Shown piece after piece: positions 12,577 through 35,302 of a stretch of DNA of 48,910 bases; position 1 is the stretch's first letter, and every line of letters starts with the position of its first letter. The notes under the pieces were generated by a model that searched no databases, had not been told where the DNA came from, and was given only the letters and a program-made list of their open reading frames with translations. Source of the stretch: a virus; the IMG/VR virus record IMGVR_UViG_3300046820_000671, positions 1-48,910 of that record; one strand, 5' to 3'. A program made the translations under genes and the position numbers.

Positions 12577-12641
12577 TATTGCTGTATGAAGTAGACAGAA
12601 AAGGATTCAAGACGCGGGGGCAGTGCCCGCCAGGTCCACCA
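12577..12641 (+). ncRNA. ssrA: tmRNA acceptor piece (permuted two-piece ssrA)
   Basis: Ends in CAGGTCC-A-CCA (12631-12641). T arm: GCGGG (12614-12618), loop GGCAGTG, CCCGC (12626-12630); the loop is not the usual TTC type, which I recall as typical of two-piece tmRNAs. The 3' strand CAGGTCC pairs over 7 bp with GGGCCTG at 12981-12987 of the coding piece, including G3-U70, the identity signal for alanyl-tRNA synthetase. Acceptor before coding is the order expected of a circularly permuted ssrA gene. The 5' end is estimated from the promoter. Confidence 0.85.
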
Positions 12642-12652
12642 TAAGGAAGTTA

Positions 12653-12967
12653 ATGAAGATAAGTGAACTAACATCGGGATACTTGGGACAGATTGCTAAG
12701 TTAAATTGGCAACCGGTCGACAAGAGTGTATGGAATTCTATTCGGGACGAAGGTCTAGATGAAGAACAAAACGCACCCAATTCTGCTGATTGGATCATGG
12801 CTTCATTAAATATTACACCAGAAGATGCTCAAGCATTGATGGCATATGAAGATGATGCAATCGAAGAATTTAATCGTTTTGATATTGCATTGAAGCAACG
12901 CTATCCTGGTATGGTAGATTTAATTGATTACGACAATGGTACTGTTACTATTGTCAAAGTCAAGTGA
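12653..12967 (+). CDS. Small protein encoded in the tmRNA spacer
   Basis: 104 aa from the ATG at 12653, with AAGGAAG upstream; the start is 12 nt after the CCA of the tmRNA acceptor piece. Acidic and mostly helical (MKISELTSGYLGQIAKLNW, EEQNAPNSADWIMASLNI), with a short C-terminal strand TVTIVKVK. No known domain. Lying in the spacer removed during tmRNA maturation, its mRNA would be released when the two RNA pieces are cut out. Function unknown; a link to ribosome rescue is only positional. Confidence 0.75.
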   Translation: MKISELTSGYLGQIAKLNWQPVDKSVWNSIRDEGLDEEQNAPNSADWIMASLNITPEDAQALMAYEDDAIEEFNRFDIALKQRYPGMVDLIDYDNGTVTIVKVK

Positions 12968-12980
12968 GTTTCTTTATAAT
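12951..12980 (+). promoter_or_regulatory. Possible sigma70 promoter inside the tmRNA locus
   Basis: TTGTCA (12951-12956), 18-nt spacer, TATAAT (12975-12980), directly before G1 of the coding piece. A start here would begin about 6 nt inside the mature RNA, so it may be chance. Confidence 0.35.
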
Positions 12981-13160
12981 GGGCCTGACACAGGATCGAT
13001 TGGGTCAAGAGTACGAAAATGGACAGCTCGGCAATGCAGAAGCCGTAGGATTGGGATCTCCCGGTCGTAGAAGCACAACAAAGTAAACGCAAACGACTCA
13101 CAGTTCGCATTAGCGGCCTAAACTCCGCTTAGGGTAAGAAATACCTCGTAACAGAAACTC
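12981..13160 (+). ncRNA. ssrA: tmRNA coding piece, tag ANDSQFALAA
   Basis: Begins GGGCCTGACACAGGATCGAT, matching the 5' tRNA-like domain of tmRNA (E. coli GGGGCTGATTCTGGATTCGA). The tag reading frame starts at GCA 13089 and reads A-N-D-S-Q-F-A-L-A-A, stop TAA at 13119-13121. The tag has the conserved AND start and ALAA end recognised by ClpXP, and resembles betaproteobacterial tags. Together with the acceptor piece it rescues stalled ribosomes by trans-translation. The 3' end is estimated, just before the terminator. Confidence 0.88.
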
Positions 13161-21018: not shown

Positions 21019-21561
21019 ATGCTTGATAACTTTTATGTTTACGAAACACCAGACTTCTTAGATGTTCCTTACATTGTCAATTTAGTTATGCAAAAGTTGG
21101 AGACTGATTTTGTCCTTCAGGGCTATGTTAGAATCAATGCCAACGAAGATCCTTACCTTAAGACTGTACTAGAACAGTTTCCTTTTATAGGCGGATGGCT
21201 TAACATTTACCATACCAAACCGGGCGGCTACATTCCCTTGCACGTTGATGGGCATAGACTTGCGGCTTTTAACATTCCCATTAGCGGATGCGATGAAACA
21301 AGTCAAACCATTTATTATGAACCAATGGGAGAGATTGAAAAGGTCTACAAAGAAGATGAACGCCATTATCGTATTCATGGTGAGATGCAGGAAGTCTACA
21401 GATTTGCACTTACTAGGCCTGCATTGATTCGAAACGATGTGGCCCATGATGTAAAGCGTTTCAATGCTACTAGTACCAGGATTATTGCTAGTTGGGGAGT
21501 AGGTGGCTCATATGAGGAATGTAAACTAAAGTTTAAAGAATACTTCCAAAATAACGGTTGA
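21019..21561 (+). CDS. 2OG-Fe(II) oxygenase-like protein (2)
   Basis: 180 aa. GGYIPLHVDGHR (HxD), AHDV distal histidine and STRIIASWG with the 2OG arginine. The IPLHVDG...FNIPISG pattern is close to aspartyl/asparaginyl beta-hydroxylase-like proteins. Start at 21019 fits the late element. The stop is inside the -35 box of the tRNA-array promoter at 21558, so the oxygenase gene and stable RNA transcription are directly joined. Confidence 0.82.
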   Translation: MLDNFYVYETPDFLDVPYIVNLVMQKLETDFVLQGYVRINANEDPYLKTVLEQFPFIGGWLNIYHTKPGGYIPLHVDGHRLAAFNIPISGCDETSQTIYYEPMGEIEKVYKEDERHYRIHGEMQEVYRFALTRPALIRNDVAHDVKRFNATSTRIIASWGVGGSYEECKLKFKEYFQNNG

Positions 21562-21586
21562 CAAGCCAATACAAGTCATATATACT
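21558..21586 (+). promoter_or_regulatory. sigma70 promoter heading the tRNA array
   Basis: TTGACA (21558-21563), 17-nt spacer, TATACT (21581-21586). An ATG lies exactly 6 nt after the -10 box (21593). Confidence 0.9.
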
Positions 21587-21592
21587 AGCAAC

Positions 21593-21637
21593 ATGATGAA
21601 ACATTTTTCTATAGCAGGTTCGATAAGCATACGTTGA
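21593..21637 (+). CDS. 14-codon leaderless micro-ORF
   Basis: MMKHFSIAGSISIR, beginning at the predicted transcription start. Could be a leader peptide or chance. A 7-bp hairpin (ATACGTT/AACGTAT, 21629-21647) follows and ends just before the first tRNA. Confidence 0.35.
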   Translation: MMKHFSIAGSISIR

Positions 21638-21651
21638 TCCAACGTATTCGT

Positions 21652-21743
21652 GCCCCTATAGTTTAATGGTAAAACGGCGGATTTATATCCCGTAAGCAAC
21701 AGATAATTGGTTCATCTCGGTTCGACTCCGGGTGGGGGTACCA
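21652..21743 (+). tRNA. tRNA with anticodon TAT (Ile, AUA), long variable region
   Basis: Acceptor GCCCCTA/TGGGGGT, discriminator A, encoded CCA. D arm GTTT/AAAC, T arm CTCGG-TTCGACT-CCGGG. Anticodon loop TTTATAT reads TAT, with an A-C mismatch closing the anticodon stem. The variable region is 22 nt, which is odd for tRNA-Ile. Its body resembles the Gly(TCC) tRNA at 26055. Identity uncertain. Confidence 0.75.
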
Positions 21744-21776
21744 AAAAAATAATTTAAGATTTTTAGTACATAACCG

Positions 21777-21805
21777 TTGACAAAGAGACAGATTGGATAT
21801 ATAAT
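21777..21805 (+). promoter_or_regulatory. sigma70 promoter (consensus)
   Basis: TTGACA (21777-21782), 17-nt spacer, TATAAT (21800-21805), driving the small transcript at 21812-21931. Confidence 0.9.
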
Positions 21806-21811
21806 TACACT

Positions 21812-21877
21812 ATGTTAAATGCAAATTTATTACCAGGAACAAATACGCCAGCCGTGGAGGGTACTCCGCAGGCTTGA
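21812..21877 (+). CDS. 21-codon leaderless micro-ORF
   Basis: MLNANLLPGTNTPAVEGTPQA; the ATG lies exactly 6 nt after a consensus -10 box, at the predicted +1. The stop is inside the first of two tandem hairpins, as in attenuator leaders. No homology claimed. Confidence 0.4.
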   Translation: MLNANLLPGTNTPAVEGTPQA

Positions 21878-21931
21878 TCCTACACATCTGTAATGATCAA
21901 GCCTTGGAACTAAACACTCCAAGGTTTTTGT
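21871..21931 (+). terminator. Tandem hairpins ending in an intrinsic terminator
   Basis: First hairpin GGCTTGATC (21871-21879)/GATCAAGCC (21895-21903). Second CCTTGGA (21902-21908)/TCCAAGG (21918-21924), then TTTTTG. The stems share two bases, so they compete slightly. Confidence 0.85.
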
Positions 21932-21958
21932 TTTTAGTGATAGTAGAATTTTTTTGAT

Positions 21959-22034
<76 letters not shown>

Positions 22035-22064
22035 AAAAAGTTTTAAAATAGTTTCAAATAAGTG

Positions 22065-22093
22065 TTGACAACATGACGTAACTGTCATATAAT
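22065..22093 (+). promoter_or_regulatory. sigma70 promoter of the second tRNA block
   Basis: TTGACA (22065-22070), 17-nt spacer, TATAAT (22088-22093). Confidence 0.92.
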
Positions 22094-22158
22094 TGATACT
22101 TACACAGCAACAAACGATAGAGTAGTTGCTTAGTTCTTTAAAAATTTAGTGGCAATTT

Positions 22159-22233
22159 GCTCGGCTCGTCTATCGGTTAGGACGCTGGCCTTTCACGCCG
22201 GAAAGAGGGGTTCGATTCCCCTGCCGAGTACCA
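22159..22233 (+). tRNA. tRNA-Glu(TTC)
   Basis: Acceptor GCTCGGC/GCCGAGT, anticodon loop CTTTCAC, CCA encoded. The next structured RNA begins at the base after the CCA. Confidence 0.95.
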
Positions 22234-22376
22234 TTTGTTTAGTGTTATCAAGGAATCGTGTATGGACGCATACACTATGCGGGCCTAATCCGCCGGAAAC
22301 AGGTCCTAATATAACTGCATCGGCTTTGACCGGGAAGCACCCGACGTCTAAATTTGCGTGATAACACTAAACAAAT
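22234..22376 (+). ncRNA. Paired structured RNA, copy 1 (new class candidate)
   Basis: Closed by a perfect 17-bp stem (22234-22250 with 22359-22375), exactly between two tRNAs. Inside: hairpin GTGTATG-GACG-CATACAC (22258-22275); GGGCCT/AGGTCC (22281-22286/22301-22306); ATATAACTGCATCGGCTTTG; hairpin CGGG-AAGCA-CCCG (22331-22343) with outer GAC/GTC; then CTAAATTT. The same core recurs at 23787 with compensating base changes. T4 has stable RNAs C and D in its tRNA cluster, a precedent for position only. Confidence 0.82.
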
Positions 22377-22380
22377 GTAT

Positions 22381-22464
22381 GCGAGAGTGGAGAAATGGTA
22401 TACTCAGGAGACTTAAAATCTCCCGTCGAAAGGCATGCGGGTTCGAGTCCCGCCTCTCGCACCA
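22381..22464 (+). tRNA. tRNA-Leu(TAA)
   Basis: Acceptor GCGAGAG/CTCTCGC, anticodon stem GGAGA/TCTCC with loop CTTAAAA, long variable arm, CCA encoded. Confidence 0.95.
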
Positions 22465-22473
22465 ATAAGTTTT

Positions 22474-22550
22474 GCACCGTTAGCTCAGTTGGTTAGATCG
22501 CTTGCCTGTCACGCAAGAGGCCAGGGGTTCGAGTCCCCTACGGTGCGCCA
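22474..22550 (+). tRNA. tRNA-Asp(GTC) (1)
   Basis: GCACCGT/ACGGTGC acceptor, anticodon stem CTTGC/GCAAG with loop CTGTCAC, CCA encoded. Parent-like to the degenerate copy at 28053. Confidence 0.95.
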
Positions 22551-22559
22551 TAAATTTGA

Positions 22560-22673
22560 TGAGGGGGAGTGTGCATAGCGGCGCAATGCCTACGGTGCCT
22601 ACTCTTAAACAACAGCAGAGCAGTCACGCAAACTTCGTGATGTAAGACTTGGAGCCACTCCTGTGCCCCTTAG
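22560..22673 (+). ncRNA. Structured RNA between tRNA-Asp and the radical SAM gene
   Basis: Closing stem AGGGG-GAGTG (22562-22571) pairs with CACTC...CCCCT (22656-22670) around a bulge. Inner hairpins: GGCGC/GTGCC (22580-22598) and TCACG/CGTGA (22623-22639). No ORF of note. Confidence 0.55.
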
Positions 22674-22692
22674 CTAGTAAAATTGGGCGTTC

Positions 22693-22700
22693 TATAAATA
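22693..22700 (+). promoter_or_regulatory. Late promoter TATAAATA (T4 consensus)
   Basis: Exact T4 late consensus, 5 nt before the ATG at 22706. Confidence 0.75.
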
Positions 22701-22705
22701 AACGC

Positions 22706-23602
22706 ATGATAGAACTAGAATATGCAGAAGTATCTTGGGCATTGAACGCATACTGTAAATTTCAGTGTACGTACTGCCAGCCGCACTTTAAAAACGGTGA
22801 GCTAGATAAAACTGTTGACCAGTATTTGTCTGTTATTGACAAGTTACAACATACAAGGTATAAACATCACAACAAAATCTATTGGAAGATAAGTGGTGGT
22901 GAACCTTTACACTTTCCTCATCTTAGCACATTGTTAAAGAAGATGAAAGAGAAGCCTAGTATTGTTAGACTAGACACCAGTGGTGATGATACATGGTTTT
23001 CGGTGTATGGTGTGATAAATCTCATTGACAAAGTAAAACTAACATATCATTCGTGGCAAAATGATGATGTGTTTGATTTTATACTTGAACAATGTAAAGA
23101 AAAAAACATTGATGTTTCTATCATAGTACCATTGGTTCCAGGCCGCATTTTTGAATCAAGAGACAAAGTAAAACGCTTTAAAGATCTTGGTTATGTGTGT
23201 AGTGAGCAAATGTTACGAGATATAGATGGAAAGACACATCGAGGATATAGTGCAGTTGATATTAATAGAATATATGGTAGGCCAGATGATTGGGAACCAA
23301 AGCCAGTCATACCTATTGTTCGAGATCCAAATGCACCAGATCCTAATTACATAGATCTTAGGATTGTTAATAACACAGACCCAGTATATACTGGACAACC
23401 GTGTTATGCAGGAGTTGATTGGTTGTATATAAATCCAAAAGGATTTGCATCATACAGCCAATGTGGTGGCAGGAACGAACACTACAATGCGTTTGATCCA
23501 GATTGGCAACCACCAAGCAATCATTTTCCATGCACAGTTAATCAGTGCAGGAACAATAAAGATCGTAGAAAAATAAGAATAATGACCGAACGTTCTGCCT
23601 AA
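22706..23602 (+). CDS. Radical SAM protein with C-terminal cysteine-rich (SPASM/twitch-like) region
   Basis: 298 aa. The ATG at 22706 fits the late promoter and is preferred to an in-frame ATG at 22649 inside the upstream RNA. Cluster motif CKFQCTYC (Cys17, 21, 24), then ISGGEPL (SAM-binding GGE). C-terminal cysteines (QPCYAGVDWLYINPKG, YSQCGGR, CTVNQCRNN) could bind an auxiliary Fe-S cluster, as in peptide-modifying radical SAM enzymes. Substrate unknown; oxygenases and a methyltransferase nearby suggest a shared modification pathway. It may benefit from the phage IscU/IscA. Confidence 0.9.
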   Translation: MIELEYAEVSWALNAYCKFQCTYCQPHFKNGELDKTVDQYLSVIDKLQHTRYKHHNKIYWKISGGEPLHFPHLSTLLKKMKEKPSIVRLDTSGDDTWFSVYGVINLIDKVKLTYHSWQNDDVFDFILEQCKEKNIDVSIIVPLVPGRIFESRDKVKRFKDLGYVCSEQMLRDIDGKTHRGYSAVDINRIYGRPDDWEPKPVIPIVRDPNAPDPNYIDLRIVNNTDPVYTGQPCYAGVDWLYINPKGFASYSQCGGRNEHYNAFDPDWQPPSNHFPCTVNQCRNNKDRRKIRIMTERSA

Positions 23603-23604
23603 TC

Positions 23605-23780
23605 AGCAGATACTGTGACCCGCAGGATGAGAAGTAGTGTGATAGCTACGGGTGGTAGTCTTTAAACCTAAAGGCCGCTAGCAATGCGAGAACGGTCCCT
23701 GTCGGGAAGCGGGTGGAAGGTACATGTGATGACTCCAAAGGTTTGATGTACTACAATTACCGCCGGGGGATGCAGAGCAT
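23605..23780 (+). ncRNA. Structured RNA after the radical SAM gene
   Basis: About 175 nt without a plausible gene and with many stems: ACCCG/CGGGT (about 23618/23649) enclosing GTAG/CTAC; CTTTA/TAAAG (23669-23682); CCC-TGTC-GGG (23697-23706); GTACAT/ATGTAC (23720-23751). Directly before the second copy of the paired RNA. Identity unknown; it does not show RNase P or 6S hallmarks. Confidence 0.5.
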
Positions 23781-23786
23781 TTTTTG

Positions 23787-23939
23787 TTTTTATAGTCAAG
23801 CATCGATAAGGTATTGTGTATGGACGCATACACTATTCGGGTCACAGCGGCCGGCGACTGATCCTGATATAACTGCATCGGCTTTGGAACGGAAGCACCG
23901 GACTCCTAAATTGGCATTCTCGGTGCTTGACTATAAAAA
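23787..23939 (+). ncRNA. Paired structured RNA, copy 2 (new class candidate)
   Basis: Closed by a perfect 16-bp stem (23787-23802 with 23924-23939) unrelated in sequence to that of copy 1. Same core: GTGTATG-GACG-CATACAC (23816-23833), then GGGTCA/TGATCC (23839-23844/23859-23864) where copy 1 has GGGCCT/AGGTCC, then ATATAACTGCATCGGCTTTG and CGG-AAGCA-CCG with outer GGA/TCC where copy 1 has GAC/GTC. These paired changes support a conserved fold. Confidence 0.82.
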
Positions 23940-23942
23940 TTA

Positions 23943-24018
23943 GGTCTTAAAGTGTTCATGGACGCACGACGGCTTGTCACGCCGTAAGAGTGAGGATTGT
24001 TACTCCCTAAGACCGCCA
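23943..24018 (+). tRNA. tRNA-Asp(GTC) (2), unusual T arm
   Basis: Acceptor GGTCTTA/TAAGACC, anticodon stem ACGGC/GCCGT with loop TTGTCAC, CCA encoded. T loop ATTGTTA on a weak stem TGAGG/CTCCC with two mismatches. Confidence 0.8.
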
Positions 24019-24024
24019 AGTTTT

Positions 24025-24099
24025 GTCGCATTAGACTTCTGGTGAGGTCATCACCCTTTCAAGGTGACTAGACGGGATCGTAACCCGTATGCGACTCCA
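24025..24099 (+). tRNA. tRNA-Glu(TTC) (2), A54-T58 T loop
   Basis: Acceptor GTCGCAT/ATGCGAC, anticodon stem TCACC/GGTGA with loop CTTTCAA, CCA encoded. T stem ACGGG/CCCGT is perfect but the loop is ATCGTAA instead of TTCRANY. Confidence 0.9.
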
Positions 24100-24102
24100 T
24101 TG

Positions 24103-24182
24103 ATAAACACACTTACAGATCCGCCCGAGTAGTAAGGGAGATAGCGACTAACCGTTGAAGGACTGTTTAAAAGTGTGTTTCT
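24103..24182 (+). ncRNA. Small structured RNA between tRNA-Glu and tRNA-Ala
   Basis: Perfect 10-bp stem AAACACACTT (24105-24114)/AAGTGTGTTT (24171-24180), continued inside by ACAG-TCC/GGA-CTGT. About 76 nt. Confidence 0.6.
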
Positions 24183-24191
24183 ATATGATAT

Positions 24192-24267
24192 GGGGGTGTA
24201 GCTCAGTTGGGAGAGCGTCTGCTTTGCAAGCAGAATGTCGCAGGTTCAATCCCTGTCACCTCCACCA
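24192..24267 (+). tRNA. tRNA-Ala(TGC)
   Basis: GGGGGTG/CACCTCC acceptor, CTGCT/AGCAG stem with loop TTGCA region (anticodon TGC), TTCAATC T loop, CCA encoded. Confidence 0.96.
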
Positions 24268-24271
24268 ATTT

Positions 24272-24883
24272 TTAGTCTTTGATGATGAGCGAATCGAAGA
24301 CTTCTAATGCATGTTCCCAAGATTTGACATCGTTGAGATTGAATCGGATGCTAATACAGACCCGATTGTGACTAGAAGTTTTATATGTTACACGATGCGG
24401 AATATCAGTTCTAAACAAGTAAGGTTGGTTTTCTTTAACATTTAAAGATCCAATGTTAGTAAACGCTGATATATCCATGTTAGCCCGATGTCCATAGTGT
24501 GCTCCATTTAGTTCTAATGGTAATGCATGTTCTGGATCAGGCAAGTGTTCATTTTCTTTACTAGTGTCATACCATTCAAATAACGTATCACCTGGAGTTA
24601 ATTCCCAATTGATACCGCATGGTATCGATTTCCATTGGTTATCAAGATATGTTATATCGCGATGTACTTGGATTTCGTTTTGTTTTGCATACAGCCGTCC
24701 AAAGTACACAACAAATCTTGGACGTAAGTTTATAGACTTGAATATATCAAGTATCTCAGAAGTAAGATAAGTTTCTAAATCTTCTTCAACGGTACTATAC
24801 TTCTTTTTCTTGGCAATTAACGAACCCAAGTTTTCACGTTTAAGCGGATCTTGCGGAAGGTTTAGTTTGTAAAATAGACTCAT
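24272..24883 (-). CDS. 2OG-Fe(II) oxygenase-like protein (3)
   Basis: 203 aa from the ATG at 24883, set by a late element 5 nt upstream; the frame runs further upstream but without support. NEIQVHRDITY (HxD), TDIPHRVTY (distal His), NRVCISIRFN (2OG arginine). A downstream-facing gene ending 4 nt from tRNA-Ala on the other strand. Substrate unknown. Confidence 0.82.
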   Translation of the reverse strand: MSLFYKLNLPQDPLKRENLGSLIAKKKKYSTVEEDLETYLTSEILDIFKSINLRPRFVVYFGRLYAKQNEIQVHRDITYLDNQWKSIPCGINWELTPGDTLFEWYDTSKENEHLPDPEHALPLELNGAHYGHRANMDISAFTNIGSLNVKENQPYLFRTDIPHRVTYKTSSHNRVCISIRFNLNDVKSWEHALEVFDSLIIKD

Positions 24884-26128: not shown

Positions 26129-26338
26129 AACCCCGTGTTAACTCAACGTAACAGAGTTAGGTAATTAGCAAACCTTAAACGCTACGGTGCATTGGATCTA
26201 CCGCAAGGCTCTGTTTGGAGCGACTTGAGAAATCACAAAGGCGGGGACGTTGCCCGTCTAAATGGAAAAGTACGTGGACAGAGTAACCGCTCAGTTTAGG
26301 GCTCTTGTGGTGAGAGTAGCTAGACACTAATACTTTTC
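26129..26338 (+). ncRNA. Large structured RNA upstream of an oxygenase gene
   Basis: About 210 nt without a gene. Stems: AACTC/GAGTT (26140-26158), AGGT/ACCT (26159-26174), CGCT/AGCG, CGGG/CCCG (26242-26256), and an 8-bp GAAAAGTA/TACTTTTC (26265-26272/26330-26337). Contains GTCTAAAT before a stem, as in the paired class, but otherwise differs. Confidence 0.5.
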
Positions 26339-26341
26339 TTT

Positions 26342-28045: not shown

Positions 28046-28053
28046 TACTTATG
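28046..28053 (-). promoter_or_regulatory. Late promoter CATAAGTA
   Basis: Minus strand, 5 nt before the ATG at 28040; it abuts the first base of the plus-strand tRNA copy. Confidence 0.65.
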
Positions 28054-28129
28054 CACCGTTAGATCAGTTGGTTAGATCGCATGTCTGTCACGGCGGAGGC
28101 CAGGGGTTCGAGTCCCCTACGGTGCGCCA
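28053..28129 (+). pseudogene. Degenerate tRNA-Asp copy
   Basis: Nearly identical to tRNA-Asp at 22474 over acceptor, T arm and most of the D arm, but the anticodon stem is destroyed (CATGT/GGCGG against CTTGC/GCAAG) and the D stem has C to A. The GTC loop and CCA remain. Likely a recent duplicate that lost tRNA function, or an RNA with another use. Confidence 0.75.
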
Positions 28130-34822: not shown

Positions 34823-34897
34823 GGGGGATAAACTTTGATGGTGAAGTCCTGCCTCTTAAGCAGAGAGAACTAGGTTCGACTCCTAGATACCCCACCA
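34823..34897 (+). tRNA. tRNA-Lys(CTT)
   Basis: GGGGGAT/ATACCCC acceptor (one mismatch), loop CTCTTAA, CCA encoded. Confidence 0.85.
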
Positions 34898-34903
34898 ATT
34901 TTT

Positions 34904-34988
34904 GGAGATGAAGCATCAATGGTGATGCAGTGGACTGTAAATCCGCCGCCTTCGGGTACGACTGGTTCGATCCCAGTAATCTCCACCA
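34904..34988 (+). tRNA. tRNA-Tyr(GTA) (2)
   Basis: GGAGATG/TAATCTCC acceptor, loop CTGTAAA, long variable arm, CCA encoded. Confidence 0.93.
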
Positions 34989-35069: not shown

Positions 35070-35071
35070 AG

Positions 35072-35294
35072 TTTTGTAAGTGTCAGCAAGTGAAGTCACG
35101 CTGCCTAGGTTTCTTCGAAGGACCAAAGCAGTAAAAGGTTAATGGGTTCAACTCCCACCTGCGGGGAACTGCGGAGGTCCGTAACGGGGACTATACTGGA
35201 CGAATCCCAAGTGATATCCATCGTGCTCGAGGTCAGGCTAGGCGGCCGGTAAGTCCTGAATAAATCTACGATAAACGCGACGTAGACTTACAAA
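35072..35294 (+). ncRNA. Large structured RNA with a T-arm-like hairpin
   Basis: About 220 nt closed by TTTGTAAGT (35073-35081)/ACTTACAAA (35286-35294). Contains a T-arm-like TGGG-TTCAACT-CCCA (35143-35157) and several GC-rich stems. Exactly between two tRNAs. Not recognised. Confidence 0.55.
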
Positions 35295-35302
35295 TTCAAC
35301 AT

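Follow-up and report, generated by a model that had tools for sequence, protein, structure and literature searches.

A Pseudoknotted Structured RNA Family in the tRNA Arrays of Uncultivated Large Phages

Uncultivated large phages carry, within their tRNA arrays and on the tRNA strand, a family of small structured RNAs. Sequence comparison shows that its members are homologous and supports, with covariation that extends to a pseudoknot, a predicted fold of about 145 to 170 nt comprising a long closing stem (P1), three hairpins (P2, P3, and P4), and the pseudoknot. A first-pass annotation of one phage sequence had proposed a new class of structured RNA with covarying stems, and the strong covariation of a larger, independent set of homologs, together with the absence of any match in Rfam 15, bears that proposal out. 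What is new is the family; the general notion that phage tRNA arrays can hold orphan structured RNAs is not.

Two Copies in One tRNA Array

The window, meaning the whole 48,910-bp stretch of a virus record analyzed here, encodes 36 tRNAs according to ARAGORN and, in a whole-window scan with Rfam 15, a permuted tmRNA. Two copies of the RNA with a common core, located where the initial reading had placed them, were confirmed. The relevant features, all on the plus strand, are as follows.

22065..22093, +: TTGACA-17-TATAAT promoter-like site directly upstream of tRNA-Glu and copy 1; consensus match only
22232..22377, +: RNA copy 1, between tRNA-Glu(ttc) (22159-22233) and tRNA-Leu(taa) (22381-22464)
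22232..22249, +: copy 1 P1, 5' strand, pairing with 22360-22377; begins with the last two bases of the upstream tRNA CCA
22258..22275, +: copy 1 P2 hairpin, 7 bp, GACG loop
22281..22306, +: copy 1 P3 hairpin, with GCCG in the loop (22292-22295)
22321..22324, +: copy 1 pseudoknot 3' strand, CGGC; partner GCCG at 22292-22295
22328..22348, +: copy 1 P4 hairpin, AAGCA loop, AC bulge
22360..22377, +: copy 1 P1, 3' strand
23606..23784, +: another undescribed covarying RNA (about 180 nt), unrelated to the family and directly preceding copy 2
23786..23940, +: RNA copy 2, closely followed by a tRNA-Asp-like gene (about 23943-24018)
23786..23806, +: copy 2 P1, 5' strand, pairing with 23920-23940
23816..23833, +: copy 2 P2 hairpin, GACG loop
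23839..23864, +: copy 2 P3 hairpin, with GCCG in the loop (23850-23853)
23879..23882, +: copy 2 pseudoknot 3' strand, CGGC; partner GCCG at 23850-23853
23886..23906, +: copy 2 P4 hairpin
23920..23940, +: copy 2 P1, 3' strand

The covariance model of the family (R1) matched copy 1, a member of its training set, at 22236-22373 (cmsearch, 153 bits, E = 4e-34) and copy 2 at 23794-23932 (155.6 bits, E = 9e-35). The two align with a mean column identity of 84%, and neither a core match search nor cmsearch with R1 found a third copy anywhere in the window. Two core matches arose in none of 100 shuffles, and both copies folded better than shuffled sequences (z = -3.4 and -3.1).

Closing stems of 17 and 16 bp had originally been proposed; the pairing holds, but the stems are longer, at 18 to 19 bp in copy 1, where the helix reaches into the 3' CCA of tRNA-Glu, and 21 bp, including two G-U pairs, in copy 2. 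Likewise, both RNAs had been described as filling exactly the gaps beside tRNAs. This is true of copy 1, which occupies the entire gap between tRNA-Glu(ttc) and tRNA-Leu(taa), but not of copy 2, whose upstream neighbor is the conserved RNA at 23606-23784 and whose downstream neighbor is the tRNA-Asp-like gene. ARAGORN and Rfam miss that gene (23943-24018) here, and ARAGORN calls a tRNA-Asp at the same place in relatives; its T-arm is irregular, and it may be degenerate. Three promoter-like sites, all consensus matches only, precede local tRNA units.

Elsewhere in the window, some array tRNAs are unusual or low scoring (34823-34985 and 28053-28129; 36 to 46 bits, with one two-base anticodon call). 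The phage-borne permuted tmRNA (12580-13121; RF04321, 92 bits) has its halves separated by a stretch with a 114-amino-acid open reading frame (12623-12967).

Covariation of the Nested Helices

The paired differences between the two window copies noted at the outset, GGGCCT/AGGTCC against GGGTCA/TGATCC and GAC/GTC against GGA/TCC, are real, and they go far beyond chance once homologs are added. Among 72 distinct copies, the proposed structure (P1, P2, P3 with an inner P3b, P4, and the pseudoknot) was 96.9% paired, versus 28 to 45% with slid partners, and its covariation score was 0.533, versus at most 0.100. Among 91 diverse copies, in an alignment made against the model and leaning towards the structure, both partners changed in 28 of 32 nested pairs, four helices were supported, and the score was 0.763, versus at most 0.123 for slid pairings. 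Parsimony on a FastTree tree counted about 309 double changes, a rough figure given that the tree was built from the same columns and that copies of the RNA have probably recombined. Covariation is thus present in the further homologs, where its absence would have spoken against a selected structure.

Sequence and structure are conserved in different parts of the predicted RNA. P1 is 17 to 30 bp long in all 117 non-redundant copies, and its sequence changes freely. Nearly invariant segments include GGTAtCGT leading into P2, GACG in the P2 loop, CTATnCGGG, aCnGnTCCTnAnAtAAC, and AAAT, and the conserved unpaired core has TCCTnAnAtAAC among its segments. Conservation reaches at least 97% at 25 of 75 unpaired positions, compared to 11 of 64 paired positions; the closing stem is thus free to vary as long as pairing is kept, while the core is constrained in sequence. 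Some copies have an alternative P2 loop, CTGATCA, and some an optional extra hairpin, ATGGAAACAT, in the joint between P1 and P2. An extension of P2 in which GGUAUC would pair with CUAUNC was rejected, since it would set the variable base of GGTANC opposite an A that does not vary.

A Pseudoknot between the P3 Loop and the P3-P4 Linker

The pseudoknot, which was absent from the first-pass annotation, pairs a 4-mer in the P3 loop with a 4-mer in the linker between P3 and P4. Although it was not part of the model used to align the 91 copies, the two 4-mers are complementary in all 91, versus 39 on average and at most 53 after shuffling. The combinations are GCCG/CGGC (44 copies), GCGA/TCGC (40), GCGT/ACGC (6), and GCTT/AAGC (1); for each of the two pairs that vary, three independent events are inferred. 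As a test of prediction, copies were sought with a pattern that constrained the 3' side alone (A.GC); in all 27 returned, the unconstrained 5' side proved complementary. One loop nucleotide precedes the pairing, and an A-rich linker of 13 to 14 nt follows P3, lengths that would fit the geometry of an H-type pseudoknot.

Distribution

An 18-base core pattern matched 48 IMG/VR stretches, only one of which was spurious; broader patterns returned at least 174 IMG/VR sites with at least 135 distinct cores, and a further pattern added 19 loci. The family is larger than the sites counted. So far it is restricted to contigs of uncultivated large phages, and records carrying it reach 345 to 364 kb. When about 50,700 cultured phages (INPHARED) were searched by blastn at E ≤ 10 with three copies as queries (one from the window and two diverged), only short chance pieces or nothing was returned. 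Neither the T4 region nor any of six named phages, PA5oct, Paride, and Atu_ph07 among them, gave a match; the best score was an insignificant 15.6 bits in Atu_ph07. One core pattern run against 84,980 bacterial and archaeal species gave 46 matches, which on inspection were chance occurrences lacking the rest of the motif.

The terminase of one carrier (L275) shares 53% identity with its counterpart in Pseudomonas PA5oct-like jumbo phages (Arenbergviridae), and PA5oct lacks the RNA despite having a tRNA cluster of its own. The NrdA reductase encoded in the window is at most 59% identical to NrdA of cultured phages.

Each of 49 records searched whole holds one copy, compared to two in this window; a second, cut-off match at the opposite contig end of one of the 49 is probably the same copy. 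Because the RNA is single in these records and lies beside many different tRNAs, it resembles one product per genome rather than one element per tRNA.

Context was tabulated for the 117 non-redundant copies, considering tRNAs within 5 kb, and all 1,374 such tRNAs share the strand of the RNA. A tRNA lies within a few nucleotides of 88 copies (upstream of 47 and only downstream of 41), and the remaining 29 abut no tRNA on either side. The usual upstream neighbors are tRNA-Glu or tRNA-Tyr, and the downstream ones are tRNA-Asp, -Cys, -Lys, or -Met. In about 37 of the 117, P1 takes in the CCA of the upstream tRNA, and its downstream strand then reads TGG. Five copies have no called tRNA in the available DNA, and some of these loci end within 0.3 to 3 kb. 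No protein family is consistently linked to the RNA, recurrent neighbors appearing in at most 27 of 117 loci and at varying distances.

Comparison with Known RNAs

Rfam 15 matched only tRNA and the permuted tmRNA over the whole window; at E ≤ 10 on 21560-24300, it returned only tRNAs and subthreshold noise, with nothing at the two elements, and at five loci with diverged copies it matched only tRNA. An existing Rfam family, which would have undercut the claim of a new class, was therefore not found. The elements have no tRNA fold and no ARAGORN or RF00005 match. A search of the largely open-access literature found no description of this RNA family.

The closest comparison by position is with RNA C and RNA D (species 1 and 2 RNA) of T4, small stable phage RNAs of 139 and 119 nt that are likewise encoded in a tRNA cluster on the tRNA strand. 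They had been invoked as a positional precedent only, and this assessment stands: with filters off, R1 scored at best 8.8 bits (E = 0.3) in the T4 RNA C/RNA D region, and RNA C, unlike the new RNA, has a hairpin resembling a tRNA T-arm and folds differently. ROOL and GOLLD are structured RNAs of phages and prophages that contain pseudoknots, often lie near tRNA islands, and are of unknown function, with GOLLD often exceeding 800 nt (PMC12286853). The new RNA also lies near phage tRNA islands, and it shares with them only this address and the unknown function; they are very large compared to its roughly 150 nt, and it does not match their Rfam models.

Two other phage-related RNAs offer structural parallels. 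ToxI, of type III toxin-antitoxin systems, is a small H-type pseudoknot RNA that takes part in phage-bacteria conflict and is arranged as a tandem repeat beside the ToxN gene. The new RNA is also small, with a predicted H-type pseudoknot, but each locus holds a single unit of it, enclosed by a long closing stem, and no protein gene is consistently linked to it; judged by unit count and recurrent neighbor families, the tandem repeats next to toxN that define a type III system were not found. The pRNA of phi29 is a phage-encoded structural RNA with closed ends and loop pairing. These features recur in the new RNA, which differs in lying within tRNA arrays and has no Rfam match at E ≤ 10.

Other Conserved Stretches in the Array

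The RNA at 23606-23784 has homologs in 63 loci, with changes on both sides in 23 of 41 predicted pairs, and no Rfam match. Several other stretches of the window are also conserved or show terminal complementarity. The non-coding stretch at 35070-35302, between tRNA genes, has homologs in 26 loci, a T-arm-like GGGTTCAACTCCC, and a closing TTGAGAG/CTCTCAA; the unannotated stretch at 26129-26340, after tRNA-Gly, has homologs in 24 loci. The conserved unannotated stretch at 22551-22700 has complementary ends (GAGGGGGAGTG / CACTCCTGTGCCCCTT), is more than 90% identical to one other locus (L205), and may be a fourth structured RNA. The gap between two tRNAs at 24100-24191 has a perfect closing inverted repeat (AAACACACTT/AAGTGTGTTT), and a similar repeat (AAACACATT..AGTGTGTTT) lies downstream of a tRNA in L203. 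A gene for a radical SAM protein, with weak PHROG matches that include QueE-like proteins, lies midway through the tRNA array, between copy 1 and copy 2 (22649-23602).

Possible Roles of the RNA

We lean, by a modest measure, towards the view that this new phage RNA family is transcribed as part of the tRNA operon, released by tRNA processing, and active in trans. The RNA would be transcribed together with the tRNAs, and the enzymes responsible for maturing the neighboring tRNAs would define its ends; P1 would clamp those ends, shielding the molecule against exonucleases, and the freed RNA would act in trans through its conserved core. Its partner would probably belong to translation or tRNA metabolism or be a host defense that targets tRNAs. 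A discrete trans-acting RNA cut out with the tRNAs is suggested by the single copy amid dozens of tRNAs, the conserved pseudoknotted core, and the ends at tRNA borders. Release by tRNA processing, which the earlier annotation had raised, is consistent with an anatomy in which 88 of 117 copies abut a same-strand tRNA. Weighing against a trans-acting RNA are the lack of a consistently linked protein gene, the five copies without a called tRNA, and the presence of two copies in the window; a P1 that takes in the tRNA CCA would be compatible with a role in cis as well.

Such a cis role is the main rival. The RNA could be a processing or stability element of the tRNA precursor that spaces and marks the junction, hides the CCA of the upstream tRNA within P1, and guides cleavage by RNase P, RNase III, or RNase E, the excised RNA being waste. 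The coincidence of RNA ends with tRNA ends and the inclusion of the CCA in P1 in about 37 copies speak for it, but an element serving tRNA junctions is hard to reconcile with one copy per record, beside many different tRNAs and despite dozens of them, with conservation in the core and not in P1, and with the 41 copies that abut a downstream tRNA only and the 29 that abut none. We consider it improbable.

Next is a self-cleaving or otherwise catalytic RNA that excises itself from the tRNA precursor, which we regard as unlikely. A compact fold that includes a pseudoknot and in which about 25 unpaired positions hardly vary is the profile expected of ribozymes. Nevertheless, the RNA matches no Rfam model of the small self-cleaving ribozymes in the forms known to Rfam, has no hammerhead core of the CUGANGA type, exceeds most small ribozymes in size, and shows no evident conserved cleavage position beside P1, the sequence of which varies.

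Two copies with unrelated closing stems in one genome, in differing insertion contexts, might instead point to a mobile or selfish intron-like element with terminal inverted repeats that inserts at tRNA ends. This seems very doubtful, considering that other records hold a single copy, that the P1 arms change compensatorily rather than forming a fixed repeat, that the orientation is always the same, and that no enzyme gene is associated. Chance repeats, a degenerate tRNA, or coding sequence, for which no supporting evidence emerged, can be dismissed with near certainty in view of the covariation, the lack of an Rfam tRNA match at the element, the outcome of the shuffles, and the changing loop lengths.

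A broader and decidedly speculative extension, to which we give little credence at present, is that the family is an RNA class with an activity of its own (catalysis, or an RNA-only assembly if the pairing of loop and linker is also intermolecular) and one of at least four undescribed structured RNAs that neighbor each other in the arrays of an uncultivated jumbo-phage lineage and together make up a phage toolkit for the takeover of translation.

Implications for Phage tRNA Arrays

The RNA family described here is well supported, has no entry in Rfam, and comprises over 130 distinct sequences from uncultivated large phages. The role of stable RNAs in phage tRNA clusters has been a question since T4 RNAs C and D and is raised again by ROOL and GOLLD. 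An RNA that is compact and strongly conserved, usually present as a single copy, and has a pseudoknot that can be tested offers a tractable handle on that role. With further undescribed RNAs present in the arrays, much of the RNA repertoire of these phages goes unnoticed in current annotation.
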